Shown: positions 17,474 to 56,892 of the stretch, piece after piece
Numbering within the stretch: position 1 is the stretch's first letter
How the letters are laid out: each line of letters opens with the position of its first letter
Source: Geodermatophilus saharensis
GTDB taxonomy: Bacteria; Actinomycetota; Actinomycetes; Mycobacteriales; Geodermatophilaceae
Direction: 5' to 3'
Length of the DNA: 64,000 bases
Assembly: GCF_900188205.1 (NCBI RefSeq)
Contig: NZ_FZOH01000007.1
Location: 56,709-120,708, forward strand
Notes under the pieces: model-generated
Database searches by the model: none
The model's input: only the letters and a program-made list of their open reading frames with translations
Told to the model about the DNA's origin: nothing
Made by a program: the position numbers and the translations under genes

Positions 17474-17642
17474 GTGCCTCGCCGCTGTGCGTGTTGGCCG
17501 CGCTGCAGGGGCCCGATGCGAGCGCCAGCGAGCGTCGGGGGGCAGCGTGGTCCTTCCGGTGCCTCGCCGCTGTGCGTGTTGGCCGCGCTGCAGGGGCCCG
17601 ATGCGAGCGCCGGCGAGCGTCGGGGGCAGCGTGGTCCTTCCG
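17474..17642 (+). repeat. Tandem duplication (85 + 84 bp) carrying two copies of the dispersed hairpin repeat
   Basis: Units 17474-17558 and 17559-17642 are identical except for one A/G change and one G fewer in a G-run. Each carries one copy of the dispersed element (17498-17557 and 17583-17641), with arms CGCTGC / GCAGCG and inner CCCGA / TCGGG, ending in TCCTTCC. Each also includes a preceding ~24 bp segment, so the duplication is longer than the element. Confidence 0.9.
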
Positions 17643-17680
17643 GTGTGCCTCGCCTCGGGGCCGGACAGGTCCGGTCGGAG

Positions 17681-18553
17681 CTACCAGCTCCCGAAGACCC
17701 GCTCGGCGTTGCGGGTCAGGGCGTCGCACAGCTGCGCGACCTCCACGCCGGTGACCTCGGCCAGCGCCCGGACGGTGTGCGGCACCAGCCGGGAGGCGTT
17801 GGGCCGGCCGCGGTGCGGGACGGGCGTGAGGAACGGCGAGTCGGTCTCCACCAGCAGCTGGTCCAGCGGCGTCAGCGCCGCGGCCTCGCGCAGGTAGCCG
17901 GCGTTGCCGAAGGTCAGCGTACCGGCGAAGGACAGCACGTGGCCGCGCTCGACGCAGGCCCGCGCGAAGGCGGCGTCGCCGGAGAAGCAGTGGAAGACGG
18001 TGTGCTCGGGGGCGCCCTCGTCGTCCAGGACGCGGAGGATCTCCTCGTGGGCGTCGCGGTCGTGGACGACGAGCGCGACGCCGCGGTCCTTGGCGATCCG
18101 GACGTGCGCGCGGAACGACGCCTCCTGCGCCGCCCAGCCCTCGGGCCCGGTGCGGTACCGGTCGAGGCCGGTCTCCCCCACCGCGCGCACCCGCGGCAGC
18201 GCCGCGAGCCGGTCGATCTCGGCCAGGGCGTCGTCGGTCGCCGCTCCCGCGCCGGCCTCGTTGGGGTGCACGGCGACGGCGGCGAGCACGTTGCCGTGGC
18301 GCGCCGCGAGCCCCGCCGACCACCGCGAGGAGGGCACGTCGACACCGACCTGCACCAGCCGCGGCACCCCGACGGCGGCCGCTGCCGCGATCTCGGCGTC
18401 GACCGCGTCGTCGTCGACGGGCTCGTCGCTGCGGAAGCCGGACAGCACGATGTCGAGGTGGGTGTGGCTGTCCACCGCCGGCGCGGGCAGCGGCTCGGGG
18501 GAGGGCGGCGGCTCCCCCCGCCGGTTGGCGCGGGACGCGGCCGACCGGCTCAC
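17681..18553 (-). CDS. tatD: TatD-family metal-dependent deoxyribonuclease
   Basis: 290 residues from GTG 18553. The TIM-barrel metal ligands are in order: 'VDSHTHLDI' (about 27), the Glu in 'VRAVGETGLDRY' (about 124), His in 'ALVVHDRDAHEE' and 'VFHCFSGD', and Asp in 'LLVETDSPFLTPVPHRGRPN'. TatD proteins are 3'-5' exonucleases linked to DNA repair and quality control. The gene lies between metG and rpfB, as in mycobacteria. The first ~20 residues are low complexity and the start could lie downstream. Confidence 0.94.
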   Translation of the reverse strand: MSRSAASRANRRGEPPPSPEPLPAPAVDSHTHLDIVLSGFRSDEPVDDDAVDAEIAAAAAVGVPRLVQVGVDVPSSRWSAGLAARHGNVLAAVAVHPNEAGAGAATDDALAEIDRLAALPRVRAVGETGLDRYRTGPEGWAAQEASFRAHVRIAKDRGVALVVHDRDAHEEILRVLDDEGAPEHTVFHCFSGDAAFARACVERGHVLSFAGTLTFGNAGYLREAAALTPLDQLLVETDSPFLTPVPHRGRPNASRLVPHTVRALAEVTGVEVAQLCDALTRNAERVFGSW

Positions 18554-18576
18554 GCGTGCACTTCCGCGGACGTGCC

Positions 18577-18604
18577 CGGTGCGCGTCCGCGGACGCGCAC
18601 GGGC
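18577..18604. terminator. Perfect hairpin between metG and tatD
   Basis: Arms GTGCGCGTCC (18580-18589) and GGACGCGCAC (18592-18601) are exact complements around a 2-nt centre, with a further CC/GG pair after one mismatch. It lies in the 58 bp gap between the metG stop and the tatD start, so it may reduce read-through. Confidence 0.5.
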
Positions 18605-18611
18605 AGACGGC

Positions 18612-20405
18612 TCACCGGCCCTCCTCCAGCCGGGCCAGCTCCTCCTCGACGATCGACTCGTCGAGCTTGCGGAACACCGGGGTGGGCGGGCTCAGCGGCG
18701 TCCCCGGCGGCAGCGGCCGGGAGGTCCACACCGCCTGCCCCTGGTCGTAGTCGCCGGTGATGATCGGGTACGGCGAGCCGTCGTCGAGGTCGGTGACCTC
18801 GTCGACGCGCGGCGCCGGCGACCACACGCCGGTCCCGCCGAGCAGCTCGTGCACCTTCTGCGCCGAGTGCGGGAGGAAGGGGGTGAGCAACGCGTTGCAG
18901 TCGCTGACCGCCTGCAGAGCGGTGTGCAGCACGGTGTCGCGGCGGGCCGGGTCCTCCTTGAGCTTCCACGGCGCCTGGTCGGACAGGTACTTGTTGGCCT
19001 CGCCGACCACCCGCATGGCCTCGGTCGCCGCCGCCTTCTGCCGGTTGCGGGCCAGCAGCTCCCCGATCGGGGCGAACGCGCCCTGGGTGGCCTGCAGCAG
19101 CGCGCGGTCGGCGTCGGTCAGCTCACCCGGCGTGGGGACGGCGCCGACGTTCTTGGCCGCGAGCGACACGGTGCGGTTGACCAGGTTGCCCCAGCCGGCG
19201 ACCAGCTCGTCGTTGTTGCGGCGCTTGAACTCCGACCAGGTGAAGTCGGTGTCCTGCGTCTCGGGGCCGGCGACGGCGATGAAGTAGCGCAGCGCGTCGG
19301 CGTCGTAGCGGGCGAGGAAGTCGCGGACGTAGATGACCACCTGCCGCGAGGAGGAGAACTTGCGGCCCTCCATGGTGAGGAACTCGCTGGAGACCACCTC
19401 GGTGGGCAGGTTGAGCCGGCCCAGCGGGCCCGGTGAGCCGCCGCGGTCGCCCTCGCCGTTGTAGCCCAGCAGCTGCGCGGGCCAGATCTCGGCGTGGAAG
19501 ACGATGTTGTCCTTGCCCATGAAGTAGTAGGCGTCGGAGTCCGGCGTCTGCCACCACTGCCGCCACGCCTCGGGGTCGCCGGAGCGGCGGGCCCACTCGA
19601 TCGACGCCGACAGGTAGCCGACGACGGCGTCGAACCACACGTAGATGCGCTTGTCGGGCCGGTCGCGCCAGCCGTCGAGCGGCACCGGCACGCCCCAGTC
19701 GATGTCGCGGGTGTAGCTGCGCGGCTTGAGGTCCTCGAGCAGGTTGCGGCTGAAGTTGAGGACGTTGGGCCGCCAGCTGCCCCGGGTGGCCAGCCAGTCG
19801 CCGAGGGCCCGGGTGAAGGCGGGCAGGTCGAGGAAGTAGTGCTCGCTCTCGACGAAGCGCGGCGTCTCGCCGTTGATCCGGCTGACCGGGTTGATCAGGT
19901 CGGTGGGGTCGAGCTGGTTGCCGCAGTTGTCGCACTGGTCGCCGCGGGCGCCGTCGTAGCCGCAGATGGGGCAGGTGCCCTCGATGTAGCGGTCGGGCAG
20001 CGTGCGGCCGGTCGACGGGCTGATGGCGCCCAGCGTCGTCTGCGGGAAGACGTAGCCGTTCTTGAGCAGCCCGAGGAAGATCTCCTGGCTGACCCGCGCG
20101 TGGTTGACCGTGGTGGTGCGGGTGAACAGGTCGTAGGACAGGCCCAGCGCCTGCAGGTCGCCAACGATGACCCGGTTGTTGCGGTCGGCGATCTCGCGCG
20201 GCGTCACCCCCTCGGCGTCGGCGGCGACGGTGATCGGCGTCCCGTGCTCGTCGGTGCCGCTGACCATGAGGACCCGGTCACCGGCCATCCGGTGGTAGCG
20301 GCTGAAGACGTCGGAGGGGACGCCGAAGCCGGAGACGTGGCCGATGTGCCGGGGGCCGTTGGCGTAGGGCCAGGCCACCGCGGTCAGGATGTGCCGATCA
20401 CTCAC
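18612..20405 (-). CDS. metG: Methionyl-tRNA synthetase
   Basis: 597 residues. It charges initiator and elongator tRNA-Met. The class I signature HIGH is in '[14 protein letters not shown]' (about 17-22) and the KMSKS counterpart is 'GRKFSSSRQ'. A zinc knuckle '[18 protein letters not shown]' (about 145) marks a zinc-binding MetG. The anticodon-binding helical domain follows, and no C-terminal EMAP domain is present. The GTG start at 20405 has no ribosome-binding site but lies 7 nt after a TACGCT -10 box, pointing to a leaderless transcript that heads the metG-tatD genes. Confidence 0.97.
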
Positions 20406-20412
20406 ACCGCCG

Positions 20413-20418
20413 AGCGTA
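20413..20418 (-). promoter_or_regulatory. -10 box of leaderless metG
   Basis: TACGCT on the minus strand, separated from the GTG start by 7 nt, so transcription would begin at the start codon. No Shine-Dalgarno sequence is present. Confidence 0.5.
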
Positions 20419-20441
20419 GTGAGCGGCGTCGGGCGGGTCGG

Positions 20442-21053
20442 TCAGTGACCGGACACGGCGGCCGGAGCCGGCGGCTCGCCGCCCACCGGGGTGGTCAGGG
20501 CGAGGGCGCCGAGGGCCACGCCGATGAGGGCGACGGTCACCAGCCGCAGCCGCGGGTGGGCCACCGGGGCCGGCCGGGTGCGGCCCCGGGGCGGGGCGGC
20601 GGCCGCCCAGGCCACGGTCGTGGGCGCGGAGACCAGCAGCAGCTTGCCCACCGGGACGGCGAGGGCCAGCAGCGCCAGCGCGGGCAGCGGCAGCGTCGTC
20701 GGCGGGTCGAGGGACGTCGTCCCGGCGGCGACGGTGAGCCCGGCGACCAGCAGCAGCTCGGCGCCGGCGACGCCGGCCGGGAGCCGCCGGCCGGAGCCGT
20801 CGAGGACGGCCAGCCCGCCGGCCGCGCACAGCACGATCCAGCCGGCCAGCCCGCCGAGGACGGCGGCGACGAGCACCCCGGAGGGCCGCGGGGTCGCCGT
20901 CATCAGCCCGTCGAGGCCGGTGAGCCCCGCGGCGAGCAGGGCGAGGGCCTGCAGGACCGAGACGGCCGCCAGCAGCAGGACCGTCGCGGGCCACCGGGCG
21001 GGGTGTCCGGGCACGCGGGTCGGGAGGGGGGCGTCGAGGACGCTGGTCGCCAC
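20442..21053 (-). CDS. Small multispanning membrane protein, unknown function
   Basis: 203 residues with about five hydrophobic helices ('WPATVLLLAAVSVLQALALL', 'VLVAAVLGGLAGWIVLCAAG', 'LLLVAGLTVAAG', 'LPLPALALLALAVPVGKLLL', 'LVTVALIGVALGALAL'). A basic Pro/Arg loop precedes the last helix. No recognised domain. It sits 36 bp from metG on the same strand and 94 bp after the permease. Function cannot be assigned. Confidence 0.65.
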   Translation of the reverse strand: MATSVLDAPLPTRVPGHPARWPATVLLLAAVSVLQALALLAAGLTGLDGLMTATPRPSGVLVAAVLGGLAGWIVLCAAGGLAVLDGSGRRLPAGVAGAELLLVAGLTVAAGTTSLDPPTTLPLPALALLALAVPVGKLLLVSAPTTVAWAAAAPPRGRTRPAPVAHPRLRLVTVALIGVALGALALTTPVGGEPPAPAAVSGH

Positions 21054-21147
21054 GGATCTGCTCCTGGCCGGGGACGTCGGTCACCGGTCAGGTCGTCGCG
21101 CGCGCCCGCGCGCTGGAGTCCGGGCGGAGTAGCCTCACCCCTCCGGG

Positions 21148-22668: not shown

Positions 22669-22796
22669 GGCGTCCCCCTGCTGGTGCGGCGGTCGGTGCG
22701 GTTCCGTGCTCCGGCGAGCGTGGCACGGGGCGCGGGTGCCCGCACGCCTACGCTTCCCTCGCCCGCCGTCGCGGGCGGATCGGAGGAGGTGCGCCC

Positions 22797-25822: not shown

Positions 25823-25839
25823 TCACGCCGGCCCCCGTC

Positions 25840-25894
25840 GGCCCGCCTGCAGGGGCCCGGCGCGAGCGCGCGAGTGCCGGGGGGCAGGCGGGCC
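25840..25894 (+). repeat. Dispersed hairpin repeat, copy C
   Basis: Outer arms GGCCCGCCTGC / GCAGGCGGGCC pair over 11 bp without mismatch; inner CCCGG / CCGGG; loop contains GCGAGCGCGCGAG. It ends 7 nt before the pmt -10 box and so occupies the -35 region of that promoter. Confidence 0.85.
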
Positions 25895-25901
25895 CTTCAA
25901 A

Positions 25902-25914: not shown

Positions 25915-27441
25915 ATGGCGGTCCTGGCTCCCGAGCGCGCCGACGCCGGGCCGCCGCAGGACCCGCCGCGCCCGGCCCGGCGCCGGCCGGTCCCGCGCCC
26001 GCGGGTCGACCGCGTCCCGCCGCTGCCCGGCGACCGCCTGCTGTCCTGGCTGCTCGCGCTGGGGCTGGGCCTGCTGACGCTGGTCAGCCGCCTGGTGGGC
26101 ATCAGCTACCCCGACACCCTGCTGTTCGACGAGGCGTACTACCCGCCCGAGGCCTGGGACCTGCTGACGTGGGGCCACGAGTACAACCGCGGCTACACGT
26201 TCATCGTCCACCCGCCGCTGGGCAAGTGGATGATCGCCGGCGGCGAGGCCCTGTTCGGCTACACCAGCCTGGGCTGGCGGTTCCCGTCCGCGGTGGCCGG
26301 GGCGGTCGCCGTCGTCCTGCTGGTCCGCCTGGCCCGGCGGGTCACCGGCTCCACGCTGCTGGGCGTCACCGCCGGTCTGCTGCTGGCCCTCGACGGCCTG
26401 GCGTTCACGCTGTCGCGGATCGGCCTGCTCGACGTCTTCCTGCAGGTGTTCGTCCTCGCCGCCGTCGCCTGCCTGGTTGTCGACCGCGACCGGGTGCGCG
26501 AGCGGGTGCGCCGGCACCGGCCGGTCCCGGCCACGGGCTTCCGGCTCGGCCCCCGCGGCTGGCGGATCGCCGCCGGCCTGCTGTTCGGCTGCGCCTGCGC
26601 GGTGAAGTGGAGCGGCCTGTACTTCCTCGCCTTCGCCGCCGTCCTGTCGTTGTTCTGGGACCGCGCGGCCTGGCAGGAGGCCGGCGTCCCCCGCCCGACG
26701 GCGACCGCGCTGCGCCGCGGCCTGCCCGGCGCCACCTGGGCGCTGGCCGCGGTGCCGGTGCTCACCTACCTCGCCAGCTTCGCCGGGTGGTTCCTCGGCG
26801 AGACCGCGCAGGGGCGCTGGTGGGCGCAGCGCAACCCCGAGACGGCGTTCCCGTGGATCCCCGGCGCGCTGCGCTCCTGGTGGCACATGCACGTGGAGTG
26901 GTGGACGTTCCACAACGGCCTGTCCACGCCGCACCCGTGGGAGTCGGGCCCCTGGACCTGGCTGGTCAACGGCCGGCCGATCCTGCTGTGGAACCCCCAG
27001 GGCCTCACCGACGCCGCCGGCGAGCAGGTGGTCCGCTACGTCCTCATGGTCGGGACGCCGACCCTCTGGCTGGCGTTCGCACCGGCGCTGGTGTGGGCCG
27101 CCTGGCGCATCGTCGCCCGCCGCGACCCCGCCGCCGTCCTGGTCGCCGTCATGGTCGCCGCGGGCTGGGGCACCTGGTTCCTCAACCCCGAGCGCACGAT
27201 GTTCGTCTTCTACACCGCACCGGTGCTGCCGTTCTTCGTGCTCGCCGTCGTCCTCGTGCTGCAGGACGTCCTCGGCCGGGCGACGGACCCGCCGTGGCGC
27301 CGCACCGCGGGCCTGGCCGCGGTCAGCGGCTACGTGGCGGTGGTGGCCGGCACGTTCGCCTTCTTCTACCCGGTGCTCACCGGGCAGCCGCTGACGCACG
27401 CCGAGTGGCTCACCCGGATGTGGTTCCCGTCCTGGTACTGA
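25915..27441 (+). CDS. pmt: Dolichyl/polyprenyl-phosphate-mannose:protein mannosyltransferase
   Basis: 508 residues, GT39/GT-C fold with about ten membrane helices. The catalytic Asp-Glu is in the first external loop ('YPDTLLFDEAYYPPEAWDLL'), followed by 'FIVHPPLGKWMIAGGE'. Further conserved parts are 'LLDVFLQVFVLAA', 'KWSGLYFLAFAAV' and the C-terminal 'NPERTMFVFYTAPVLPFF'. It transfers mannose from polyprenyl-phospho-mannose to secreted proteins during Sec export. It is the counterpart of the mycobacterial Pmt next to rsmI. The ATG is leaderless by the -10 spacing. Confidence 0.95.
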   Translation: MAVLAPERADAGPPQDPPRPARRRPVPRPRVDRVPPLPGDRLLSWLLALGLGLLTLVSRLVGISYPDTLLFDEAYYPPEAWDLLTWGHEYNRGYTFIVHPPLGKWMIAGGEALFGYTSLGWRFPSAVAGAVAVVLLVRLARRVTGSTLLGVTAGLLLALDGLAFTLSRIGLLDVFLQVFVLAAVACLVVDRDRVRERVRRHRPVPATGFRLGPRGWRIAAGLLFGCACAVKWSGLYFLAFAAVLSLFWDRAAWQEAGVPRPTATALRRGLPGATWALAAVPVLTYLASFAGWFLGETAQGRWWAQRNPETAFPWIPGALRSWWHMHVEWWTFHNGLSTPHPWESGPWTWLVNGRPILLWNPQGLTDAAGEQVVRYVLMVGTPTLWLAFAPALVWAAWRIVARRDPAAVLVAVMVAAGWGTWFLNPERTMFVFYTAPVLPFFVLAVVLVLQDVLGRATDPPWRRTAGLAAVSGYVAVVAGTFAFFYPVLTGQPLTHAEWLTRMWFPSWY

Positions 27442-28990: not shown

Positions 28991-29070
28991 TGACGGAGGA
29001 CGAGAGTACCTGCCGCGGCCCCGGGTGCCGCCGATGGGGGGTGGCTCCCATCGGCGAGTGTCGGGAACGG

Positions 29071-29129
29071 CCCCCGTGCAGGGTCCCGGCCCGAGCGGAG
29101 CGAGGGTCGGGGGGCGCGGGGGTCCTTCC
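29071..29129 (+). repeat. Dispersed hairpin repeat, copy D
   Basis: Arms CCCCCGTGC / GCGCGGGGG (one G-T wobble) surround a loop with CGAGCGGAGCGAG; the trailing TCCTTCC is present. It lies just after the stop of the minus-strand glpR/sepX gene, between it and tRNA-Ala. Confidence 0.75.
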
Positions 29130-29828
29130 TCAGCCGTTGACGACGCGCGGCTGGTAGTAGTCGATCTCGGCGAACCCGATGTCGTCGTCGTCCAGGCCCA
29201 CGACGGCGCTGTCCTGCCAGCCGGCCGGCGCCGGGGTGCGGGCGGCCACCACGCGCGCGGGGCGCAGCGGGTGCACCGGCGCGAGCGGCAGGCTCGGGTG
29301 CGGCAGGCCGACGGTGGAGTGCACCGGCTCCTCGGCGACGGGCGCCGGGGCGGGACGCGCCTCCGGGGCCCGGCGCGGGGCGGGGGCCGGGCGGGCGGCC
29401 GAGCGGGCCGCGGCACGGGCCGCGCGGCGGGCGGCGGCCTGCTCGCGGCGCACCGCGGCGCGCAGCACCACCAGGTAGGCGACGACGGCGACGTCGAGCA
29501 GCCCCTGCGCCACCCACAGCCACGGCGTGAGGGTCAGGGCGCCGACCAGCGCCAGCAGCGTGAGCGCTCCCAGGCCGGCCAGCGTGCGGCGCCGGACGGC
29601 GTGCACGTCGACCCGCAGCTCGCCGGTGCTGCGCAGCAGCTCACGGTCCACCGCCACCCGCTCGGTCTCCGCCGAGCGCACCGGGTCACCCCCCCGGCGC
29701 CGCTGCAGCGTCCGGCCGGGGGTGACCTCGGCGCGCGCCGTCGAGGAGTCACCGCGGGTCACCACCATGGGCACCAGCACCACGAACCAGAGCACGACCA
29801 GCGCGGCGAGCAGCACGCCTGACCCCAT
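29130..29828 (-). CDS. Divisome membrane protein GlpR/SepX family
   Basis: 232 residues from ATG 29828; GTG 29840 is an alternative. One N-terminal helix 'LLAALVVLWFVVLVPMVVTR' is followed by a cytoplasmic basic stretch and a pair of helices ('LAGLGALTLLALVGALTLTP', 'WLWVAQGLLDVAVVAYLVVL'). A long Ala/Arg/Pro-rich region and an acidic end 'DDDDIGFAEIDYY' complete it. Topology and the position next to a MoeA-like gene match GlpR of corynebacteria (receptor of the gephyrin-like Glp at the septum) and SepX of Streptomyces. The family assignment rests on topology and synteny. Confidence 0.75.
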   Translation of the reverse strand: MGSGVLLAALVVLWFVVLVPMVVTRGDSSTARAEVTPGRTLQRRRGGDPVRSAETERVAVDRELLRSTGELRVDVHAVRRRTLAGLGALTLLALVGALTLTPWLWVAQGLLDVAVVAYLVVLRAAVRREQAAARRAARAAARSAARPAPAPRRAPEARPAPAPVAEEPVHSTVGLPHPSLPLAPVHPLRPARVVAARTPAPAGWQDSAVVGLDDDDIGFAEIDYYQPRVVNG

Positions 29829-29985
29829 CGAGAACACCACCCGTCACACGAGTCACTTGCCGCGGCAGGTTATGCAGGCAGATCCCCAGGAAGAGGGAGG
29901 CGCGCGGGCGTGTCGCCGGAGTGTTGTGGGACGGGAGTGGCGGGGACGGCGGCGTGTCGACATGGAGCCGACCGGTCACCGAGCG

Positions 29986-46957: not shown

Positions 46958-47228
46958 ATGAGGGCCGTGCTGAGGGGATTCAAGGACTTCCTGCTGCGCG
47001 GCAACCCAGGTGATCACGTTCCTGCTCACCGCCGCGGTCGTCTACTTCGTCGTGGTGCTCCCGCTGCAGAAGATCGCCGAGCGGCGGCGGCGCGGCGAGG
47101 AGGCCGGGCCCGTGGCGCCCACCGAGGTGGAGCTGCTCGCCGAGATCCGCAACCTGCTGCGCAACGGCCCCGTCCAGGGCGCCGCCCCGAGCGAGCGAGG
47201 GGTGGGGAGGACGGGGTCCTTCACCTAG
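46958..47228 (+). pseudogene. mscL: mscL remnant: central deletion plus frameshift
   Basis: The start 'MRAVLRGFKDFLLRGN' is the invariant MscL N-terminus. One base later, in another frame, the sequence resumes with 'QVITFLLTAAVVYFVVVLPLQKIAERR' (transmembrane helix 2) and 'APTEVELLAEIRNLLRNG' (C-terminal bundle). About 60 residues covering helix 1 and the periplasmic loop are missing, and the junction (about 47005-47007) is out of frame. The channel cannot be made. The 3' end merges into repeat copy E and overlaps the convergent YbaK gene stop by 4 bp. Confidence 0.88.
47168..47223 (+). repeat. Dispersed hairpin repeat, copy E
   Basis: Arms CCCCGTCC / GGACGGGG (47168-47175, 47209-47216) around inner GCCCC/GGGGT and a loop with CGAGCGAGCGAG, followed by TCCTTC. 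It covers the end of the mscL remnant and lies between convergent genes. Confidence 0.75.
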
Positions 47229-47917
47229 TCGGTGCCCCAGTGCGGCGGCCGGTCCTCCAGCCAGCGCCGGTCGGGGTCGCGCTCGTCGGGCCGCTCCCCC
47301 CAGCCGACGTCGCCGTCGTCGGGCGCCCGCTCCACCGGTGCGGGCGGGGCCGGCTGCGGGGGCTGCTCGACCGGCAGGCCGAGGTCCTGGAGGACCTCGG
47401 CGGCGGGCAGCGCGGCGAGCGCGGCACCGGGCAGCGCCAGCTTGGCGCCGCGGGTGCCCGAGCCGACGACGACGAGGCCGGCAGCGGCGACGGCGGCGTC
47501 GACCAGCACCGGCCACGACGGCGGCAGCCCGATCGGGGTGATGCCGCCGTAGGCCATGCCGGACTCCGCCACCGCCACGTCCTGCGGTGCGAAGGACGCC
47601 TTGCGCGCCCCCAGGTGCCGGCGCACCAGGCCGTTGACGTCGGCGCGGGTGGTGGCCAGCACGACGCAGGCGGCGAGCGCGGTCTGCCCGGCCCGGCGCG
47701 TGGCGACGACGACGCAGTTGGCCGACGCCGCGAGCGGGACGCCGTAGGCCTCGGTGAAGGCCGCGGTGTCGGCCAGGTCGTCGTCGACCGGCGCGACCCA
47801 GACCGGCCCGGGCAGCGACGGCAGGGCGGCCGCCACCGGCCCACCGAGCAGGTCGGGCCGCTCGGCGGCGGGCACCCAGGTCAGCGAGCCGAGCACGGGA
47901 GGGGGCGGGGTCGTCAC
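47225..47917 (-). CDS. YbaK/ProX-type aminoacyl-tRNA deacylase
   Basis: 230 residues from GTG 47917, 6 nt after a CAGGAT -10 box (leaderless). The YbaK/EbsC core lies at about 45-180: 'AYGVPLAASANCVVVATRRA', 'LRR-HLGARKASFAPQDVAV' region with the conserved Lys, and 'SGMAYGGITPIGLPPSWPVL' with the GxxP-type loop. These proteins hydrolyse misacylated tRNA-Pro or related tRNAs in trans. The ~45 residue C-terminal tail is Pro/Asp-rich. It is divergent from the VOC gene, each with its own CAGGAT box. Confidence 0.87.
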   Translation of the reverse strand: MTTPPPPVLGSLTWVPAAERPDLLGGPVAAALPSLPGPVWVAPVDDDLADTAAFTEAYGVPLAASANCVVVATRRAGQTALAACVVLATTRADVNGLVRRHLGARKASFAPQDVAVAESGMAYGGITPIGLPPSWPVLVDAAVAAAGLVVVGSGTRGAKLALPGAALAALPAAEVLQDLGLPVEQPPQPAPPAPVERAPDDGDVGWGERPDERDPDRRWLEDRPPHWGTD

Positions 47918-48798: not shown

Positions 48799-49761
48799 TC
48801 ACACCAGCGGCAGCGCGGGCTCCCGGTAGGTGGTGCCGGCCAGCGACGGCGGCAGCACGTCGGGGTCGACGACGACGGAGAACAGCGCGCGCGGGTCCTG
48901 CAGCGTCGCGGGCGGGCGGGCAGCCGCACGGGGGACGACGCGGTCCCAGCGGGCCGGGCGGCGGTGCGGCAGCAGCTCGCGGGCGTCGAACTGGTAGTCG
49001 CCGAGCACCTCCCCCACCAGCAGCCCGGCGCCGTGCTCGATCGGCAGCGCCACGGGGTCGCCGGGGCGGATCTCGTCGAGGAAGGTCGACAGCTGCCGCA
49101 GGTCCTTGCTCGGCCGCCGTCCCGAGAGCTCCTTGGCCAGCGCGCGCAGCTCGGCCTGCGACAGCCCGGTCGCGTCGACGTCGACCCCCGACTGGGTGCC
49201 CAGGCCGACGACGCCGGCGGCGAGGCACGCACCGAGCTCGTTGTGCGCCCGCGGCCGCACGACCCACACCCGCGTGCCCTCGGGCTCGGGCGCGGGCGGG
49301 ACGTCGTCGGCACCGGGCCACAGGTAGGGCAGGTCGTCGGGCTCGGACCCGAACAGCGGCGCGAACAGCGGCCGGTAGAAGTCCGGGTCCTTGGCCAGCA
49401 GGTTCGACCGGTGCGACCGGTGCAGCGCCTCGTCGCCCACCCACGAGGGCAGCAGCCCGCCGCGGGCGAGCTCCTCCTGCGCGGCGCCGGCGACGTCGGG
49501 GGCGAACTCGGCGATCAGCGTCTGGGTGCTGTCGGCGAACCCCCGCTCGCGCCACACCTGGACCATCGCCAGCCCGTAGACGACCAGCGCGGCGGTGCGC
49601 CCGCGCCACATGTGCACGACCGGGTGCGAGGCCCAGCCGTAGTCGGGCAGCTCGAGGGCGCGCAGCACCTGCAGCGTCTCCACGCGCTGCTTGCCCAGCC
49701 GCGGCGAGTCCAGCAGGCGGGCGCTCTCGACGAAGTCGGGCACCGGCAGGAAGGTCTGCAT
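48799..49761 (-). CDS. Pyrimidine-dimer DNA glycosylase-like (MSMEG_6728) domain fused to a PUA-like/Mrr-N domain
   Basis: 320 residues. The N-terminal ~130 residues match the MSMEG_6728 family of UV-endonuclease-like proteins: 'QTFLPVPDFVESARLLDSPRLGKQRVET', 'YGWASHPVVHMWRGRTAALVVYGLAMV'. The C-terminal part ('TRVWVVRPRAHNELGACLAAGVVGLGTQSG', 'FLDEIRPGDPVALPIEHGAGLLVGEVLGDYQF') resembles the EVE/PUA-like N-terminal domain of Mrr-type restriction enzymes, which reads modified bases. The fusion suggests a glycosylase guided by a base-reader domain; this is inference. It is followed downstream (lower coordinates) by an unrelated convergent gene. Confidence 0.78.
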   Translation of the reverse strand: MQTFLPVPDFVESARLLDSPRLGKQRVETLQVLRALELPDYGWASHPVVHMWRGRTAALVVYGLAMVQVWRERGFADSTQTLIAEFAPDVAGAAQEELARGGLLPSWVGDEALHRSHRSNLLAKDPDFYRPLFAPLFGSEPDDLPYLWPGADDVPPAPEPEGTRVWVVRPRAHNELGACLAAGVVGLGTQSGVDVDATGLSQAELRALAKELSGRRPSKDLRQLSTFLDEIRPGDPVALPIEHGAGLLVGEVLGDYQFDARELLPHRRPARWDRVVPRAAARPPATLQDPRALFSVVVDPDVLPPSLAGTTYREPALPLV

Positions 49762-49792: not shown

Positions 49793-50146
49793 TCAACCGC
49801 CGAGCGCCTCCAGCGCGGCCTCCCAGCGGGCGCGGCGGGCGTCGTCGTCCTGGTCCCACCACGCCGGGCCCCGCTCCCCCAGCCCGGTCTTGGCCAGCTG
49901 CACCCGGTCGCGGGCGGCGCGCCGGGCCGCCTCGTCGGGCGCCGTGCGCACCGCCGCGCGCGCGGCGCCCAGGTGCGACAGCAGCCGGGCGCGGACGTCG
50001 TCGGGCAGCGCGGGGTCGGCCGTCCGCCACCGCCGCCCGTCCACGACGACCCAGCGGCCGTCGTCGGTGAACTGGCCTCGCTGCAGGGGCCCGGCGCGAG
50101 CCTGCGAGCGCTGGGGGGCAGGGAGGTCCTTCCGGTCCCGGCTCAT
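49793..50146 (-). CDS. Small conserved actinobacterial protein with a repeat-derived N-terminus
   Basis: 117 residues. ATG 50146 overlaps the sirtuin stop (ATGA). Residues 4-23 ('RKDLPAPQRSQARAGPLQRG') are encoded by dispersed repeat copy F read in antisense. The conserved part follows: 'DDGRWVVVDGRRWRTADPAL', then a helical region ending 'WDQDDDARRARWEAALEAL'. Proteins of this type are often annotated 'biopolymer transporter Tol', without experimental support. The function is unknown. It is translationally coupled to the sirtuin. Confidence 0.78.
   Translation of the reverse strand: MSRDRKDLPAPQRSQARAGPLQRGQFTDDGRWVVVDGRRWRTADPALPDDVRARLLSHLGAARAAVRTAPDEAARRAARDRVQLAKTGLGERGPAWWDQDDDARRARWEAALEALGG
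50076..50132 (+). repeat. Dispersed hairpin repeat, copy F (inside a coding sequence)
   Basis: Arms CCTCGCTGC / GCAGGGAGG with a single mismatch (50076-50084, 50118-50126), loop with GCGAGCCTGCGAGCG, trailing TCCTTCC. The whole element is read in frame as the N-terminus of the minus-strand gene. Confidence 0.85.
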
Positions 50147-50994
50147 GCCCCGCAGCGGCGGGCCAGCTCGGGCAACACCTCGCCGAGCGGGGCGTCGACC
50201 TTGACGTCGACCCTCGCGTCGCCGCGGGTCGGCCCGAGGTTGACCACGCCGACCGGGATGCCGAGCTCGGCGGCGCGCAGCACGAACCGGTAGCCGCTCA
50301 TGACCGTCAGCGAGGAGCCGAGGACGAGCAGGCTCGCGGACTCCTCGAGCAGGCGGAAGCAGGCCTCCACGCGGTCGCGCGGCACCGTCTCGCCGAAGAA
50401 CACGACGTCGGGCTTGAGCGGGCCGGCCCCGCAGACGCGGCAGTCGACCATGACGAAGCCGTCGAGCACGTCGTCGGGCAGCTCGGCGTCGCCGTCGGGG
50501 TTCACCTCGTCGGCGCGCGGGCCGAAGGTCGGGTTGGCCGCCCGCAGCCGGCGGTGCAGCTCCGCGCGCGGGGCGACGTCGCCGCAGGCCAGGCAGACGG
50601 TGCGGTCGAGGCCGCCGTGCAGCTCGACGACGTCACGGGCGCCGGCGGCCTGGTGCAGCCCGTCGACGTTCTGGGTGACGACGCCGCCGAGCAGGCCGGC
50701 GCGCTGCAGCCGGGCGACCGCGGAGTGGCCGGCGTTGGGGCGGGCGGCGGCCATCTGCGGCCAGCCGACGAAGCTGCGCGCCCAGTAGCGGTGCCGGCCG
50801 CGCGGGTCGCGGCGGAAGGTCTGCCAGGTCATGGGCGTGTGCCGGCGCAGCGAGCCGGTGGCGCCGCGGTAGTCGGGGATGCCGGAGTCGGTGGACAGGC
50901 CGGCGCCGGAGAGGACGAGGACGTCGCCGTCGGCGACCAGGCCGGCCAGCTCGTCGAGGGCCGCGGGCTCGACGGCGGGGAGGGCGGCGGTCAC
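50143..50994 (-). CDS. Sir2-family NAD-dependent protein deacylase (sirtuin)
   Basis: 283 residues from GTG 50994. The Sir2 core is complete: 'VLVLSGAGLSTDSGIPDYRG', 'GGVVTQNVDGLHQAAGARDVVELHG' with the catalytic His, zinc cysteines 'CLACG' and 'CRVCG', and 'LKPDVVFFGETVP', 'SLLVLGSSLTVMSGYRFV'. It removes acyl groups from lysines using NAD. A small conserved gene overlaps its stop. A SRPBCC gene lies upstream on the same strand. Confidence 0.94.
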   Translation of the reverse strand: MTAALPAVEPAALDELAGLVADGDVLVLSGAGLSTDSGIPDYRGATGSLRRHTPMTWQTFRRDPRGRHRYWARSFVGWPQMAAARPNAGHSAVARLQRAGLLGGVVTQNVDGLHQAAGARDVVELHGGLDRTVCLACGDVAPRAELHRRLRAANPTFGPRADEVNPDGDAELPDDVLDGFVMVDCRVCGAGPLKPDVVFFGETVPRDRVEACFRLLEESASLLVLGSSLTVMSGYRFVLRAAELGIPVGVVNLGPTRGDARVDVKVDAPLGEVLPELARRCGA

Positions 50995-52420: not shown

Positions 52421-52697
52421 CCATGGCCTCGGTGAAGCGGGCCTCCCAGGCGGGGTCGTCGGCCGGGAACGCGGTGAGGACGCGGTCCTCCAGCACCACC
52501 GGCAGGCCGTCGCCGCCGGTGTAGGAGCGCCGCAGCAGCACCCGGGTCTCGCCGTCGACCTCCTCGTGCGCCGGCGCCCAGGCCGCCCGGACCGGCACCG
52601 GGCGCGGGTCCCGCGGCGCCGCGGACAGCACGCCGAGCCGCGACAGCAGCAGCCCGAGGACCACCAGCAGCACCACGATCTCGACCACCGCGAGCAT
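52371..52697 (-). CDS. Small single-helix membrane protein
   Basis: 108 residues from ATG 52697 with GGAG a few bases upstream. An N-terminal helix 'LAVVEIVVLLVVLGLLLSRL' is followed by an extracytoplasmic or cytoplasmic domain with 'VPVRAAWAPAHEEVDGETRVLLRRS' and 'VLEDRVLTAFPADDPAWEARFTEAMASARFR'. No known function. It overlaps the hydrolase 3' end tail to tail. Confidence 0.7.
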   Translation of the reverse strand: MLAVVEIVVLLVVLGLLLSRLGVLSAAPRDPRPVPVRAAWAPAHEEVDGETRVLLRRSYTGGDGLPVVLEDRVLTAFPADDPAWEARFTEAMASARFRCGYLNAEEGR

Positions 52698-52794
52698 CAC
52701 GCTCCGACGGTAGCCACCGGGGACGCTGCGCGGGCGGGGTCGGGTCGCCCCGGTAGCCTCGTCGCGCACGCCCCGGTCGGCCTCCTGCCGACGA

Positions 52795-52867
52795 GCCCCC
52801 GTAGCTCAGGGGATAGAGCATCGGTTTCCTAAACCGTGTGTCGCAGGTTCGAATCCTGCCGGGGGCA
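52795..52867 (+). tRNA. tRNA-Arg (anticodon CCT)
   Basis: Acceptor GCCCCCG pairs with CGGGGGC. The D-arm is AGCTC-AGGGGATA-GAGC. The anticodon loop is TTCCTAA (anticodon CCT, Arg AGG) within stem TCGGT/ACCGT, and the T-arm is GCAGG-TTCGAAT-CCTGC. Discriminator A; CCA is not encoded. No duplicated 3' end or integrase was found beside it. Confidence 0.95.
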
Positions 52868-52885
52868 CCCAGGAGCGCGCTGGCC

Positions 52886-53617
52886 TCACCTCAGGTGCCG
52901 CGCGAAGAACCGGTTCGCGTCGTCGCCCTCGAACGACGGGACGCCGGTGTGCCCGCCGGTGTTGGCGTGCAGCGTTTTCTCCGCGGAGCCGAGGGCGTCG
53001 AACAGGTCCAGCGCCTCCTGGCGGTCGTTCCCCTCGTCGTCCCACTGCAGCAGGACCAGCAGCGGGACGGTGACGCGCCGGGCCTCCTCGAACACGGCGC
53101 GGGGCACCCGGCTCCCGGCGAACAGCAGCGCGGCCGCGATGCGCGGCTCGACCACCGCCAGCCGGACGCCGATGGCGATCACCCCTCCCGAGTACCCGAC
53201 CGGTCCGCCGATCTCCGGGAGCGCGAGGAGGGCGTCCAGGGCGGCCCGCCACTCCGGCACCGCCTGCTCGACCAGCGGCAGGACGAGCCGGTCGACGACC
53301 TCGGCGTCGACCGGCTCGCCGGCCGCCAGTGCCCGCCGCAGGTCGGCGCGGGCCCCCTCGGCGTCGGCGGAGCGGGGCCGGTCCCCGCTGCCGGGGAGCT
53401 CGAGGGTGGCCGCGGCGAAGCCCGCCGCCACGGAGTGCCGGGCCCGGGCCACCAGGCGGGGGTACACCGCCTGCAGCCCGCCGGGGTGGCCGAGCAGGAC
53501 GAGCGGGACGGGAGCGGTCGGGGACCCGGGCGTCCACAGGACGCCGGGGACGTCGCCGAGGGTGAAGGAACGTTCGAGGACACCGTCGTCGAGGTGTCGT
53601 GCTGCGGTGACGTGCAC
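52886..53617 (-). CDS. Dienelactone-hydrolase-like alpha/beta hydrolase
   Basis: 243 residues from GTG 53617. 'VPLVLLGHPGGLQAVYPRLV' covers the oxyanion strand; the nucleophile elbow is 'GPVGYSGGVIAIGVRLAV' (G-Y-S-G-G); 'LLVLLQWDDEGNDRQEALDL' supplies the acid and 'HANTGGHTGVPSFEGDDANRF' the His. The fold is that of DLH-like esterases. It converges on tRNA-Arg. The substrate is unknown. Confidence 0.87.
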   Translation of the reverse strand: MHVTAARHLDDGVLERSFTLGDVPGVLWTPGSPTAPVPLVLLGHPGGLQAVYPRLVARARHSVAAGFAAATLELPGSGDRPRSADAEGARADLRRALAAGEPVDAEVVDRLVLPLVEQAVPEWRAALDALLALPEIGGPVGYSGGVIAIGVRLAVVEPRIAAALLFAGSRVPRAVFEEARRVTVPLLVLLQWDDEGNDRQEALDLFDALGSAEKTLHANTGGHTGVPSFEGDDANRFFARHLR

Positions 53618-53854
53618 GGTCGTGCCTCTCGGGAGAGCTCCTGGACGGCGCTCCCGGGCGACCTACCGCCCGACCGTGACCCCGGAGGGGAGCACCCACG
53701 TCGATGCGTCCACGGGTACCACCTCCTCCGTCTCTGGCACGGCGTCCGGAAGGTAGCAGCGGCCGGCGTGCCGGGCGAGCTCCGGCGGGACCGATGAGAT
53801 CGTGCGCGTCCGCCGGTCCCAGCTCGCGGACCGGCCCGTGGACCAGGAGGACGC

Positions 53855-54436
53855 ATGCGGAAGATCGTCGTGCAGATGATGCTGTCGCTGGACGGGTACT
53901 TCGAGGGTCCCGACCACGACCTGAGCTGGCACCGCGTCGACGAGGAACTGCACGGGCACTTCAACGAGCACCTCGCGACCATGAGCGCCTTCCTGGAGGG
54001 CCGGGTCACCTACGAGCTGATGGAGGCGGTCTGGCCGACCGCCGACCAGGACCCGGACCTCCCGCCGGTCATGCACGAGTTCGCCGGCATCTGGCGGTCG
54101 GTGCCGAAGATCGTGTTCTCCCGGACGCTGCAGCAGGTCGGCCCCAACGCCTCGCTGCGGACCGCGGTCGACCCCGACCAGATCCGCGCACTCAAGGACC
54201 AGCCCGGCGGGGACATGACGCTCGGCGGGGCCGACCTGGTGGAGACCTTCCGCCGGCTGGACCTGGTCGACGAGTACCGGCTCTACGTCAACCCGGTCGT
54301 CGTCGGCCGCGGGCGGCAGCTGTTCGGGACCGCCGACTCCCCGACGGACCTGGAGCTGGTGGAGACCCGGCGGTTCGGCAACGGCGTCGTCCTGCTGCGG
54401 CACGCCGTCCGGCGGTCGCAGGACCCGGGCACGTGA
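53855..54436 (+). CDS. RibD-C / dihydrofolate-reductase-fold protein
   Basis: 193 residues. 'RKIVVQMMLSLDGYFEGPDH' is the typical N-terminus of the YyaP/YwjB-like RibD C-terminal family; 'FLEGRVTYELMEAVWPT', 'KIVFSRTLQ', 'GGDMTLGGADLVETFRRLDL' and 'LYVNPVVVGRGRQLF' follow. These are NADPH-dependent reductases of undefined substrate. A 43-codon ORF overlaps its stop. Confidence 0.9.
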   Translation: MRKIVVQMMLSLDGYFEGPDHDLSWHRVDEELHGHFNEHLATMSAFLEGRVTYELMEAVWPTADQDPDLPPVMHEFAGIWRSVPKIVFSRTLQQVGPNASLRTAVDPDQIRALKDQPGGDMTLGGADLVETFRRLDLVDEYRLYVNPVVVGRGRQLFGTADSPTDLELVETRRFGNGVVLLRHAVRRSQDPGT

Positions 54437-54564
54437 CCACCGTCGCGCGGGCGGTCGTCGAGGAGATTGCGGACCCTCGTCGCGGCCGGTTCGACACCGG
54501 CCGCCTGGGTGCGCTCGCCGTCCCGGTGTGGTTCCTGCGCCTCGGCCGGGCGCCGTCCTCCTGA
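54433..54564 (+). CDS. Possible small coupled ORF (43 residues)
   Basis: GTG 54433 overlaps the stop of the preceding gene (GTGA), a typical coupling arrangement here. The product contains 'AVVEEIADPRRGRFDTGRLGALAVPVWFLRLG', which has a plausible protein composition and could be a truncated remnant. A terminator hairpin follows 32 bp later. No family recognised. Confidence 0.3.
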   Translation: MTTVARAVVEEIADPRRGRFDTGRLGALAVPVWFLRLGRAPSS

Positions 54565-54596
54565 CGACGCGCGGCCGCCGGAATGGCGCGCAGAAC

Positions 54597-54632
54597 GGGA
54601 GTGCCCGGCCCCCTGAGGCGCCGGGCACTCCC
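54597..54632. terminator. 13 bp perfect hairpin between convergent genes
   Basis: Arms GGGAGTGCCCGGC (54597-54609) and GCCGGGCACTCCC (54620-54632) around a 10 nt loop. It lies between the reductase operon (+) and the secreted-protein gene (-), so it can serve both. Confidence 0.75.
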
Positions 54633-54651
54633 GCCAGGAAAGGGGCAGGGA

Positions 54652-55278
54652 TCACCACCCACGCGCGGCGTGCGCGCGGCCTCGGTCGTGGTCGCGCGCA
54701 TTCCCGCGGTCGAACCAGCGGCACAGGTCGATGATCCGCGCGTCCAGCCGGACCCACTCCTCCGACACCGGGACACCCTCGGCGTCGACGGTCACCCGCA
54801 CCTGGACCTCACCTCTCTTGACGTAGGCGAGGTCCCCCTCCGGCAGGCCCGCGGCGTCCCACGCGGCCTGCTGGACCTCGTCGATCGGGAAGAGCAGCGA
54901 CGGGCCGCCCAGGGTGATCGTCGCCCCGGTCGGGCCGGAGACCTCGACCCCAGGCCCCGAGATGTCCAGCTCGTCGATCACCGCACCGTCGGCGCGGGTG
55001 AGGTCGACCGTCCAGGCGCCGCGGAACTCCGTCGTCGTCGTGCCGTCCGGGTTCTCCGTCACGCGCACCTCGACCTCGCGCACGTCCCCGCTCTCCAGGG
55101 TGACGGTGCTGTCGCACGCCTGGAACGAGACGGGCGCGTAGTAGTCCGGGATGACCTCCTCGACCGGGACGAATCCGGCGTCGTCGGCTCCGTCGGGACC
55201 ACCGTCGGCCAGTGCCGGAGTGGCACCCACCCCGACGACGACGGCTGCCAGGACACCGATCGTGGAAGTGCATCGCAT
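54652..55278 (-). CDS. Secreted protein of unknown function
   Basis: 208 residues from ATG 55278 with GGGGAGAAG upstream. A signal peptide ('RCTSTIGVLAAVVVGVGATPALA', cleavage near 'ALA-DGG') is followed by a beta-rich domain with two Cys ('YYAPVSFQACDSTVTLESGD' and 'ARIIDLCRWFDRG'). Mid-sequence 'TEFRGAWTVDLTRADGAVID' and 'ATITLGGPSLLFPIDE' are similar in layout to the secreted protein at 42133-42645. The Arg/His-rich C-terminal tail is odd for an exported protein. Function unknown. Confidence 0.75.
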   Translation of the reverse strand: MRCTSTIGVLAAVVVGVGATPALADGGPDGADDAGFVPVEEVIPDYYAPVSFQACDSTVTLESGDVREVEVRVTENPDGTTTTEFRGAWTVDLTRADGAVIDELDISGPGVEVSGPTGATITLGGPSLLFPIDEVQQAAWDAAGLPEGDLAYVKRGEVQVRVTVDAEGVPVSEEWVRLDARIIDLCRWFDRGNARDHDRGRAHAARGW

Positions 55279-55455
55279 CGTCTTCTCCCCGTCATTCCCG
55301 AAAGACACCGGCCCCGCTTTTCTCCCACGCCTGTCAACAGTGACGAAGGTCCCCGATCCGCTCCATTTCCGTGACGGCTCGTTGCCATTCCTGTGCATTC
55401 CGCAGCACTTCTCCACACGCGGTGATCCCGGCCGTACGGCGGGTACGGGCATCGA

Positions 55456-55752
55456 ATGGCACTGCGCAACGCGGCGGTCGCGGCGACCGGCCGCTGGACC
55501 GACCCCGACGACGGCATCCGCTACCCCTCCGGCGAGGTGCACGCCTGGGAGCAGGGACGCAACGAGACCGTCTGCGGCCTGTCGCTGTCGCGGTCGCGGC
55601 TCGCCCGCTTCCCGCACGTCGGCTGGGCCGACGTCCAGCCCGAGTCCGGCCGGCACGCGGAGGAGGTGCAGGAGGTCTGCCGCCGCTGCCGCGCCGGGCT
55701 CGGCGCCCGCCGCGACGACCGCGGCTGGACCCGCACGAACCCCCGCCCCTGA
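55456..55752 (+). CDS. Small Cys-rich (putative zinc-binding) protein
   Basis: 98 residues. 'VHAWEQGRNETVCGLSLSRSRLARFPHVGWADV' and 'EEVQEVCRRCRAGL' give Cys and His residues spaced as in a small actinobacterial zinc-binding family. No ribosome-binding site is seen; TACGGG 6 nt before the ATG could be a -10 box. It precedes the GPP34-like gene on the same strand. The function is unknown. Confidence 0.65.
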   Translation: MALRNAAVAATGRWTDPDDGIRYPSGEVHAWEQGRNETVCGLSLSRSRLARFPHVGWADVQPESGRHAEEVQEVCRRCRAGLGARRDDRGWTRTNPRP

Positions 55753-55768
55753 CCGGCATCGTCCCGGC

Positions 55769-56386
55769 GTGGACGACTGGGACGGGTCGACGTCGATGCG
55801 CCTGGCCTGCCTGGCTCTCGACGGCCGCGGCCGGCTGACCGACGACCTCGTCACCGCCCTCGCCGTCCGCGGGACGCTGCTGGTCGACCTCGCGCTCCGG
55901 GACCGCCTCGCCGAGACCGAGGACGCCGTGGGTCTCGACGGCCGGCCGACCGGCTTCCCGCCCGCCGACCGGCTGCTCGCCGGGGCGGCCGGATCCCCCG
56001 GGTCCCTGGCCGACCTCCTGCGCCGCGGCCGCGTCGACCAGCACGACCTCGCCGCCGAGCACCTGCGCCGGGGCAGCTGGACCCGCAGAGGGCGGTGGTC
56101 GCGCCGGTACGTCGACCACCGCGCGGCCCGCACCCGCGACGACGAGCGCGCGATGACCGCGGGCCCCGACCACGCCTGGTCCCCCGACGACGCCGCTCTC
56201 GCCGCGGTGGCGAGCACGCTCGGCGTCCTGGCCACCGACCGCGCCCTGCCCACCGAGGCGCTGCTGGCGGCGGCCGGCCCGGTGCGGTGGGTGGTGGAGG
56301 TCGTGGTGGCCGAGGTCGACCGGGCGCTGGCCCGCGGCCGGGCGCTGCGCCGCGCCGTCACCTCGGCCGACGGGACACCCGGATGA
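55769..56386 (+). CDS. GOLPH3/VPS74 (GPP34)-like protein
   Basis: 205 residues from GTG 55769. 'LACLALDGRGRLTDDLVTALAVRGTLLVDLALRDRL' resembles the N-terminal repeat of the GPP34 family ('LLLALDDxxG', 'AGALLLDLALxGRV'), and 'ALAAVASTLGVLATDRALPTEALLAAAGP' the later helices. Actinobacteria have many such paralogues; eukaryotic members bind phosphoinositides at the Golgi, whereas the bacterial role is unknown. Assignment is by pattern, with moderate certainty. Confidence 0.6.
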   Translation: MDDWDGSTSMRLACLALDGRGRLTDDLVTALAVRGTLLVDLALRDRLAETEDAVGLDGRPTGFPPADRLLAGAAGSPGSLADLLRRGRVDQHDLAAEHLRRGSWTRRGRWSRRYVDHRAARTRDDERAMTAGPDHAWSPDDAALAAVASTLGVLATDRALPTEALLAAAGPVRWVVEVVVAEVDRALARGRALRRAVTSADGTPG

Positions 56387-56498
56387 GGGCGGCACACCGG
56401 TCAGCGGGAAGTGTCCCCGGCTCCGAGGCGTTACCGTTCCAGATGCACGACGGAACCCCGGCAACGGCGCCGGGGCGATGCGGAGGTGGCACAGCACG

Positions 56499-56819
56499 AT
56501 GGAGACCACGGTGGTCGACGTCCCGGAACGGGGACGGTTCGAGGTGCGGGTCGGCGAGCGCGTCGTCGGACTGGCCAGCTACCACGTCGAGGACGGCACG
56601 ATGGCCCTGCCGCACACCGAGGTGGACCCGTCCATGGGTGGCCGCGGGCTCGGCACGGTCCTGGTGGCCGGCGTCCTCGACGCCGTCCGCGAGCGGGGAC
56701 TGACCGTCCTCCCCTACTGCTCCTTCGTCCGCCACTACATCCAGCAGCACCCGGAGACGCTGGACCTGGTCGCCGACGAGGACAAGCCCCGGTTCGGGTT
56801 GGCCACCGCCGACCACTGA
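56499..56819 (+). CDS. YjdJ-type (Gcn5-related) N-acetyltransferase
   Basis: 106 residues from ATG 56499 with GGAGGT upstream; ATG 56478 is an alternative. It is the short GNAT type: 'RFEVRVGERVVGLASYHVED', acetyl-CoA loop 'MGGRGLGTVLVAGVLDAVRE', and 'VLPYCSFVRHYIQQHPETLDLV', which closely matches the YjdJ/Gtnat family end. Substrate unknown. Repeat copy G follows. Confidence 0.9.
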   Translation: METTVVDVPERGRFEVRVGERVVGLASYHVEDGTMALPHTEVDPSMGGRGLGTVLVAGVLDAVRERGLTVLPYCSFVRHYIQQHPETLDLVADEDKPRFGLATADH

Positions 56820-56841
56820 CCGGCCGCTGACCTGCGGCTGG

Positions 56842-56892
56842 CCTCGGTGCAGGGGCCCGCGGCGAGCGTGCGAGTCGCGGGGGGCACCGAGG
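56842..56892 (+). repeat. Dispersed hairpin repeat, copy G
   Basis: Arms CCTCGGTGC / GCACCGAGG pair perfectly over 9 bp; inner CCCGCG / CGCGGG; loop with GCGAGCGTGCGAG; followed by TCCTCC. It ends 9 nt before the photolyase -10 box, as copy C does relative to pmt. Confidence 0.85.

Follow-up and report, generated by a model that had tools for sequence, protein, structure and literature searches.

The window analysed here, a 64,000-nt stretch of the Geodermatophilus saharensis genome (contig NZ_FZOH01000007.1, positions 56,709 to 120,708 of the forward strand), carries seven copies of a two-tier DNA hairpin of about 60 nt. This element is dispersed and copied, conserves its structure, and is tied to gene boundaries; its exact tie to stop codons is its most interesting point. 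The copies probably represent mobile elements that are small, palindromic, and non-autonomous and that form a family of the repetitive extragenic palindrome (REP) or miniature inverted-repeat transposable element (MITE) kind, without the GTAG tag or a REP-associated tyrosine transposase (RAYT).

A sequence-only reading of the window had claimed seven copies of a repeat, and all seven were present where it had placed them, on the plus strand. The loop pattern CGAGC-N(1-6)-GCGAG-N(2-4)-YGGGG matched the window seven times, always on the plus strand, against 0.20 matches expected over both strands; this count was reached in none of 100 shuffles of the window. A covariance model (R2) recovered the same seven copies with E-values of 4e-18 to 3e-13, the next best match having an E-value of 0.12. 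Because these copies belong to the 43 sequences on which R2 was trained, their scores arise partly by construction. The copies, all on the plus strand, lie at 17494..17556 (copy 1, which opens a tandem pair; R2 73.8 bits, E 7.7e-17), 17579..17640 (copy 2, second tandem unit; 65.2 bits, E 1.4e-14), 25838..25898 (copy 3, between divergent genes; 71.5 bits, E 3.1e-16), 29067..29128 (copy 4; 72.4 bits, E 1.8e-16), 47164..47222 (copy 5; 60.1 bits, E 2.9e-13), 50072..50132 (copy 6; 78.7 bits, E 4.1e-18), and 56838..56898 (copy 7; 77.1 bits, E 1e-17). An Rfam scan of the window returned three tRNAs only, with no match to the element at gathering score.

The unit can be written as CGGCC-arm-AGGGN-CCCGNNNC-GAGC-NN-GCGA-GNNNYGGG-GG-arm-GGTCCTTC, its 3' side terminating in GGTCCTTC. 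The outer arm is variable, with 57 different 9-mers in a set of 130 pattern matches, at least two of which (L052, L067) are not from Geodermatophilaceae. A conserved AGGGN/GG internal loop separates it from an inner stem of 8 bp (CCCGNNNC/GNNNYGGG), which is closed by GAGC-NN-GCGA, a loop in which two G.A pairs could form. About one third of the copies have a 16-nt 5' extension, roughly GGTGACGTGCTGGAAC, that ends in CTGGAAC, and the GAAC at the end of this extension stands directly before GGCC in 73 of 227 copies. Tandem arrays of 5' half-elements with a GGTGAC...CTGGAAC extension were seen at L188 (12230, genome G013), L105, and L029, the 3' half being present in the last unit only.

Pairing of the outer arms, which had been reported to differ between copies and yet to pair within each, was confirmed in an alignment (A2) of 43 copies picked for diversity, in which 93.3% of cells were paired. 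The covariation score of the outer stem was 0.360, compared with 0.129 after shuffling and 0.041–0.084 with the arms slid by 1–3 columns. In the 130 matches, the longest perfect outer stem averaged 7.69 bp vs. 5.05 bp when partners were swapped, the highest value in 50 swaps being 5.30. One of five pairing measures was weak, with 10 pairs changed on both sides vs. 8.5, a value reached by 47 of 500 shuffles. Real pairing was thus better than in shuffled controls, and the outcome that would have spoken against a selected structure did not occur. The inner stem, absent from the sequence-only reading, covaried more clearly than the outer one: its pairs 2, 3, and 4 were standard in 121, 126, and 124 of the 130 copies, respectively, vs. 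approximately 64, 73, and 95 with swapped partners. Six window copies folded better than their shuffles (z −2.5 to −3.1); copy 6 (50076), whose outer stem contains a G/G mismatch, folded little better than its own (z −0.98).

Wobble pairs distinguished the two strands. When only the conserved loop served as the anchor, 135 G.T and no A.C combinations were counted at inner pairs 2–5 of the 130 copies; a fold of the opposite strand would be expected to give the reverse excess. This indicated that, relative to the abutting gene, it is the antisense strand whose fold is conserved. In addition, outer pair 10 was G.T in 62 of 95 own-genome copies.

In the host genome (4.89 Mb, 20 contigs), a genome-wide scan with the element core yielded 123 copies, 70 forward and 53 reverse, and a reversed-pattern control yielded none, so the absence of further copies, which would have counted against a repeat family, did not occur. 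The core was present in all 26 genomes of the genus, at numbers ranging from 7 copies (G020) to 217 (G003), in 7 of 11 other genomes of the family, and, with one match each, in 3 of 24 other genomes of the order; across genomes the control gave one match in each of two genomes. Among the matches listed, named records were mostly Geodermatophilus, Blastococcus, Modestobacter, and Trujillonella, with Arthrobacter and scattered single matches as further records. A variant with the same core occurred at 2 to 38 copies in each of ten genomes from Arthrobacter, Pseudarthrobacter, and Specibacter records that were chosen because they had matches (Arthrobacter belongs to Micrococcaceae); its control was zero. 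This variant was often arranged in tandem with a spacing of about 55–57 nt, as in G453, G454, G460, G461, and other Arthrobacter-type records. A class-wide scan with R2 found matches in 3 of 393 other genomes, one belonging to the same family and two to a single other genus, and a phylum-wide scan with an earlier model (R1, its outer arms one column out of register) in 3 of 395; both used strict filters, by which weak matches were lost.

Three types of observation bear on how the copies spread. Firstly, among the copies whose placement was examined (98 of 123 in the own genome and 65 of 217 in genome G003), some own-genome pairs differed by only 1–2 bases. Near-identical pairs shared 96–98% identity within the element and 17–38% in the flanks, and three of four such pairs also shared the 5' extension at 88–94%. 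Selection for structure rather than simple copying, as the sequence-only reading had it, was partly borne out: structure is conserved, and copying has also taken place, as the 96–98% identical copies at unrelated loci show. In outer-arm changes between close paralogs of the own genome, 16 of 57 were compensatory and 25 of 57 broke a pair, the paralog pairs not being independent of one another.

Secondly, elements were found within elements with matching arms (L167, L179), and L188 held an array of 5' halves. A permissive nesting rule selected 16 of 249 copies, about a dozen of which were clean by eye; nesting broke the older element in the loop or in the inner arm on its 3' side. At positions 1235–1500 of L167, the tatD site of G014, several nested elements were seen, one of them inverted, with arms in Russian-doll order. 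Thirdly, empty sites were found for the copies at 50085, 56851, 29080, and 25851, each in one or two of four complete relatives. The site of copy 3 was empty in G017, which kept the TACCCT box; that of copy 6 held copies in G013 and G024 and was empty in G017 and G023; that of copy 7 was empty in G023 and G013, both of which kept a TANCNT box. At the TatD gene beside copies 1 and 2 (17681..18553), where presence and absence were surveyed more widely, 11 of 25 genus genomes had a copy. A tree of 26 rows with one outgroup, its bootstrap not settled, required eight gains or losses, at least four of them forced by well-supported branches, and carriers were no more clustered on it than shuffled labels. 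Near-identical copies in unrelated flanks, nesting, and presence or absence between species together suggest that the element is mobile.

The position of the copies relative to genes was established with a home-made codon-usage gene caller. The right-hand gene lay on the opposite strand for 111 of the 130 copies, and its stop codon followed GGTCC at preferred distances: TGA at 4 nt in 51 copies, TAG at 5 nt in 10, and TGA at 1 nt in 8. In the own genome, 86 of the 98 copies examined had an opposite-strand right-hand gene, with TGA at 4 nt in 46, TAG at 5 nt in 11, TGA at 1 nt in 5, and TAG at 2 nt in 4. All 46 own-genome copies with TCA in register were at called stops. Comparable intergenic DNA contained 195 non-stop TGA vs. 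244 TGA stops; under equal access, 46 of 46 would arise with a probability of about 2e-12 by our arithmetic, and the plain TGA trinucleotide was therefore rejected as the target. The stop lock was weaker in G003, where 19 copies had TCA in register, 16 of them at called stops, and 46 had neither. In the Arthrobacter-type variant, an opposite-strand stop 18–19 nt after the core, right behind the hairpin, was found for 3 of 15 matches, so that with this gene caller the stop register appeared less general there.

A second setting was represented by 9 of 128 copies, two of them in the window (25838, 56838), which precede the start of a same-strand gene instead. TANNNT beginning at position 7 was present in 8 of these 9 copies, compared with 2 of the 119 others. 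Copy 3 is followed directly by the −10-like TACCCT and lies 18 nt upstream of the start of gene 25915-27441 (+); copy 7 is followed directly by the −10-like TAGCCT and lies 18 nt upstream of the photolyase gene 56915-58288 (+). Overall, the element is a high-copy extragenic palindrome located mainly downstream of coding regions.

The fixed register could also arise if the element itself supplied the stop codon on landing in the last codons of a gene, the register then reflecting the end of the element and the reading frame rather than targeting. GTAG REPs provide a parallel, as their termini are described as often providing a TAG stop (PMC3733652). In every one of the 11 tatD carriers, a conserved Trp is the last residue before the stop, and 13 of the 14 genus non-carriers read on by at least one residue; moreover, the TGA registers and the TAG registers are each 3 nt apart, that is, in one frame. 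On the other hand, both non-carriers at gene 29130 (G023, G017) have the identical stop, and at tatD the stop follows the Trp in the absence of a copy in G007 and in G044 and G051, the two loci from outside the genus in which this Trp was identified. TCA is missing from the register of copies that do not lie at gene ends, and stop usage at copies resembles the background (TGA 730, TAG 117, TAA 20). Evidence that the copy supplies the stop was mixed, and at tatD copy and stop go together, whichever came first; as a general explanation of the register, stop supply is considered improbable.

Selection could alternatively hold the hairpin behind stops as a functional 3'-end element, either a terminator or a stabilizer of the mRNA end, with presence and absence caused by loss and recombination. 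The tight stop-codon register and the conserved strong hairpin are consistent with such a role, as are the occurrence of copies at the same site in several species and a convergent share in the own genome (38 of 85 copies with a known left gene) slightly above that of background gene pairs (108 of 328). However, no T-run follows the hairpin, the consensus there being TTCNN by base counts, and the inner stem forms better pairs when the antisense strand is folded. Nine of the 128 copies precede a same-strand gene, terminators would not be expected to nest or to recur nearly unchanged at unrelated loci, and occurrence is patchy within one bacterial family. For copies with an opposite-strand right-hand gene, the left-hand gene pointed either way (47 opposite, 38 same, 1 unknown in the own genome). 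A terminator family, one of the identities first proposed for the repeat, was not supported as the principal interpretation, and a 3'-end function of the wider kind is regarded as possible at a clearly lower probability than mobility.

The shared strand of the seven window copies had also led to the suggestion of an oriented chromosome-architecture signal. dnaA was placed in five genomes, and orientation relative to the replication arms was counted in four complete ones, with the terminus assumed opposite the origin, near tandem same-strand copies merged, and G024 and G013 counted on the AGGGTCCCG subset only. The strand of the abutting gene was co-directional with the fork for 163 of 273 copies (for G023, among the matches listed), without a consistent signal between genomes: 61 of 91 in G023 (among the matches listed, 104 in all), 38 of 58 in G013, 26 of 47 in G017, and 38 of 77 in G024. 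Two contigs showed runs of one orientation (C10, 20 of 26 reverse; C11, 17 of 21 forward), and these, together with the G023 and G013 counts, are what a signal for chromosome architecture or segregation oriented to the arms would predict, whereas the G017 and G024 counts are not. Moreover, it is the neighbouring gene that determines how a copy is oriented. The count of 163 of 273 could result from an ordinary gene bias, and the same-strand run in the window needs no further cause; an arm-oriented, KOPS-like signal is given hardly any credence. A bias toward the lagging-strand template, a feature of IS200/IS605-type elements, would rest on the same 163 of 273, a value that varies between genomes and is inseparable from gene strand bias.

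REP-type repeats are usually explained by RAYT transposases, and the GTAG tag and a Y1/RAYT transposase are the marks of classical REPs. Y1_Tnp (PF01797) was absent from the own genome and from all 24 genus genomes searched (of 26), and was found in 5 of 14 control genomes; it was also found in two genomes of other families. Y2_Tnp (PF04986) gave no match in 38 genomes, the control genomes being likewise silent. Three far-apart candidates with common arms for an autonomous copy, in which an open reading frame would lie between matching half-elements (L240, L253, L257), were judged to be chance occurrences.

In comparison with GTAG REPs, which come with RAYTs (PMC3733652) and for which a guide tetranucleotide and TnpA-REP have been described (PMC6006769), the element is similar in being a short, high-copy palindrome, mostly downstream of coding regions, in which a single strand folds, the ends lie close to stop codons or overlap them, and copies are isolated as well as clustered. 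It differs in its two-tier stem of about 60 nt, in nesting in its own loop, in the lack of a Y1 transposase in the 24 genus genomes, and in its tag: of 241 copies, only 22 had GTRG within 9 nt of the foot on the element strand and 26 had it on the opposite strand. Like this element, CGTC REPs are a palindromic repeat family described as lacking a dedicated transposase (PMC3733652); among the 241 copies here, 17 had a CGTC tag on the element strand and one had it on the opposite strand, and stem and loop differ. The idea of a REP-like element held with respect to a high-copy palindromic repeat mostly behind genes and failed with respect to the GTAG tag and the Y1/RAYT transposase, which are not there as a rule. 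To our knowledge, a strongly covarying hairpin is not a defining feature of mycobacterial interspersed repetitive units (MIRU). MIRU of Mycobacterium tuberculosis are described as intergenic units of 40–100 bp, interspersed and sometimes tandem (PMC2734929), and are thus comparable in an actinobacterium, a likeness drawn from description. A literature search by title, whose coverage mostly excluded subscription literature, returned no description of this hairpin family. We regard the element as a new, REP-like variant of mobile hairpin that falls outside the GTAG/RAYT family.

Several points weigh against mobility as the explanation. All examined copies differ from one another (98 in the own genome, 65 in G003), so there was no burst of identical copies. 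The permissive nesting rule that selected 16 of 249 copies selected 7.5 in a swapped control. No target duplication was seen at the sites compared with the four complete relatives, and the left junction was not sharp. Neither an autonomous copy bearing an open reading frame nor a mobilizer was found in the sequences examined. Outer pairs 1–8 showed no clear G.T excess (approximately 21 G.T vs. 10 A.C in the own genome, 6 vs. 10 in G003), so that it is the inner stem, together with the fixed wobbles, that carries the claim of a folded strand. Reliance on the home-made gene caller is a further weak point. Presence and absence can also arise by loss and recombination, and gain at tatD is indistinguishable from loss or recombination. 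There, each of the sister pairs G010/G002 and G005/G006 combines a carrier with a non-carrier, and a flanking insertion is common to G002 and G006, a pattern that points to recombination or repeated loss. In these two genomes (L164 and L161, respectively), approximately 29 extra bases lie beside the tatD copy; their sisters G010 and G005 have neither the copy nor the extra bases.

Folded palindromes directly behind stop codons are also known from attC sites. An attC-type folded single-strand recombination site behind cassette-like genes, recombined by a tyrosine recombinase, would likewise be palindromic, keep its structure while the arms vary, fold on one strand, and lie directly behind stops on the antisense strand. 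The element, however, has ordinary chromosomal genes as its neighbours (TatD, Sir2, photolyase), many tandem and nested copies come without genes, and the attC core-site motif was not apparent in the consensus, no motif search having been made. An attC-type origin is considered very unlikely.

Under the preferred interpretation as a mobile element, the element strand, which is antisense to the gene it abuts, would move in folded, single-stranded form, carried in trans by an enzyme other than a Pfam-detectable Y1 transposase. Insertion would take place immediately behind a stop codon, immediately in front of a −10-like box, or within a copy already present. A more specific version is speculative and regarded as unlikely, if conceivable. 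In it, the hairpin would be specific to gene ends (with a register exact to one nucleotide and TGA and TAG offset by one), to the edges of −10 boxes, and to loops within copies of itself; the mechanism would depend on translation termination or on DNA that is locally single-stranded, and the enzyme would be of a class not known to mobilize REPs.

By analogy with Escherichia coli REPs only, a hairpin 1–5 nt behind the stop may affect the end of translation or the 3' end of the mRNA. PMC12306157 cites stalling of ribosomes by E. coli REPs located no more than 15 nt from a stop codon, and ribosome stalling is the most natural guess for an effect on host genes. Approximately 11% of predicted E. 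coli REPs lie within 15 nt of a stop in that account (PMC12306157), compared with most own-genome copies here, in fixed registers; a hairpin just behind the stop codon is common to both and makes the E. coli repeats a possible model.

Copies 1 and 2 form a tandem duplication with an 85-bp unit (99% identity over 68 nt), to the left of the TatD-related DNase gene (17681..18553, minus strand; PF01026, E 1.9e-69); copy 2 is approximately 40 nt from its stop, the spacing being 42 nt after GGTCC. Copy 4 lies directly behind the TGA stop of a gene without Pfam match (29130..29840, minus strand, from gene calling). A different GC-rich inverted repeat, CCGGGTGCC...GGCACCCGG, was seen in the 28995-29066 region of the window and in the G023 and G017 homologues; it lies before the stop-proximal site in these relatives, which lack a copy there, and may be a native terminator.

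Copy 5 lies directly behind the TAG stop of an aminoacyl-tRNA editing domain gene (47225..47896, minus strand; PF04073, E 2e-17). On the plus strand, a frame at 46974-47228, open only from 46974, matches the C-terminal part of MscL (PF01741, residues 76–122 of the model), runs through copy 5, and ends at a TAG behind it. The upstream part of this MscL-like gene is out of frame or missing, and in the G013 homologue the stop precedes the copy. Copy 6 is approximately 12 nt from the stop of a Sir2-family gene (50143..50994, minus strand; PF02146, E 3.9e-37), and downstream of copy 7 lies the DNA photolyase gene (56915..58288, plus strand; PF03441, E 4.9e-83; PF00875, E 2.2e-37). A pyrimidine-dimer glycosylase-like gene (48799-49761, minus strand) and the photolyase gene lie near copies 6 and 7.

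With 7 to 217 fold-keeping, self-nesting copies per genome, placed exactly behind stop codons, and no Y1 transposase detected, the family suggests that hairpins of this kind may spread by another route. The patchy distribution of copies among related species would provide a natural experiment on the effect of a hairpin placed directly behind a stop codon.

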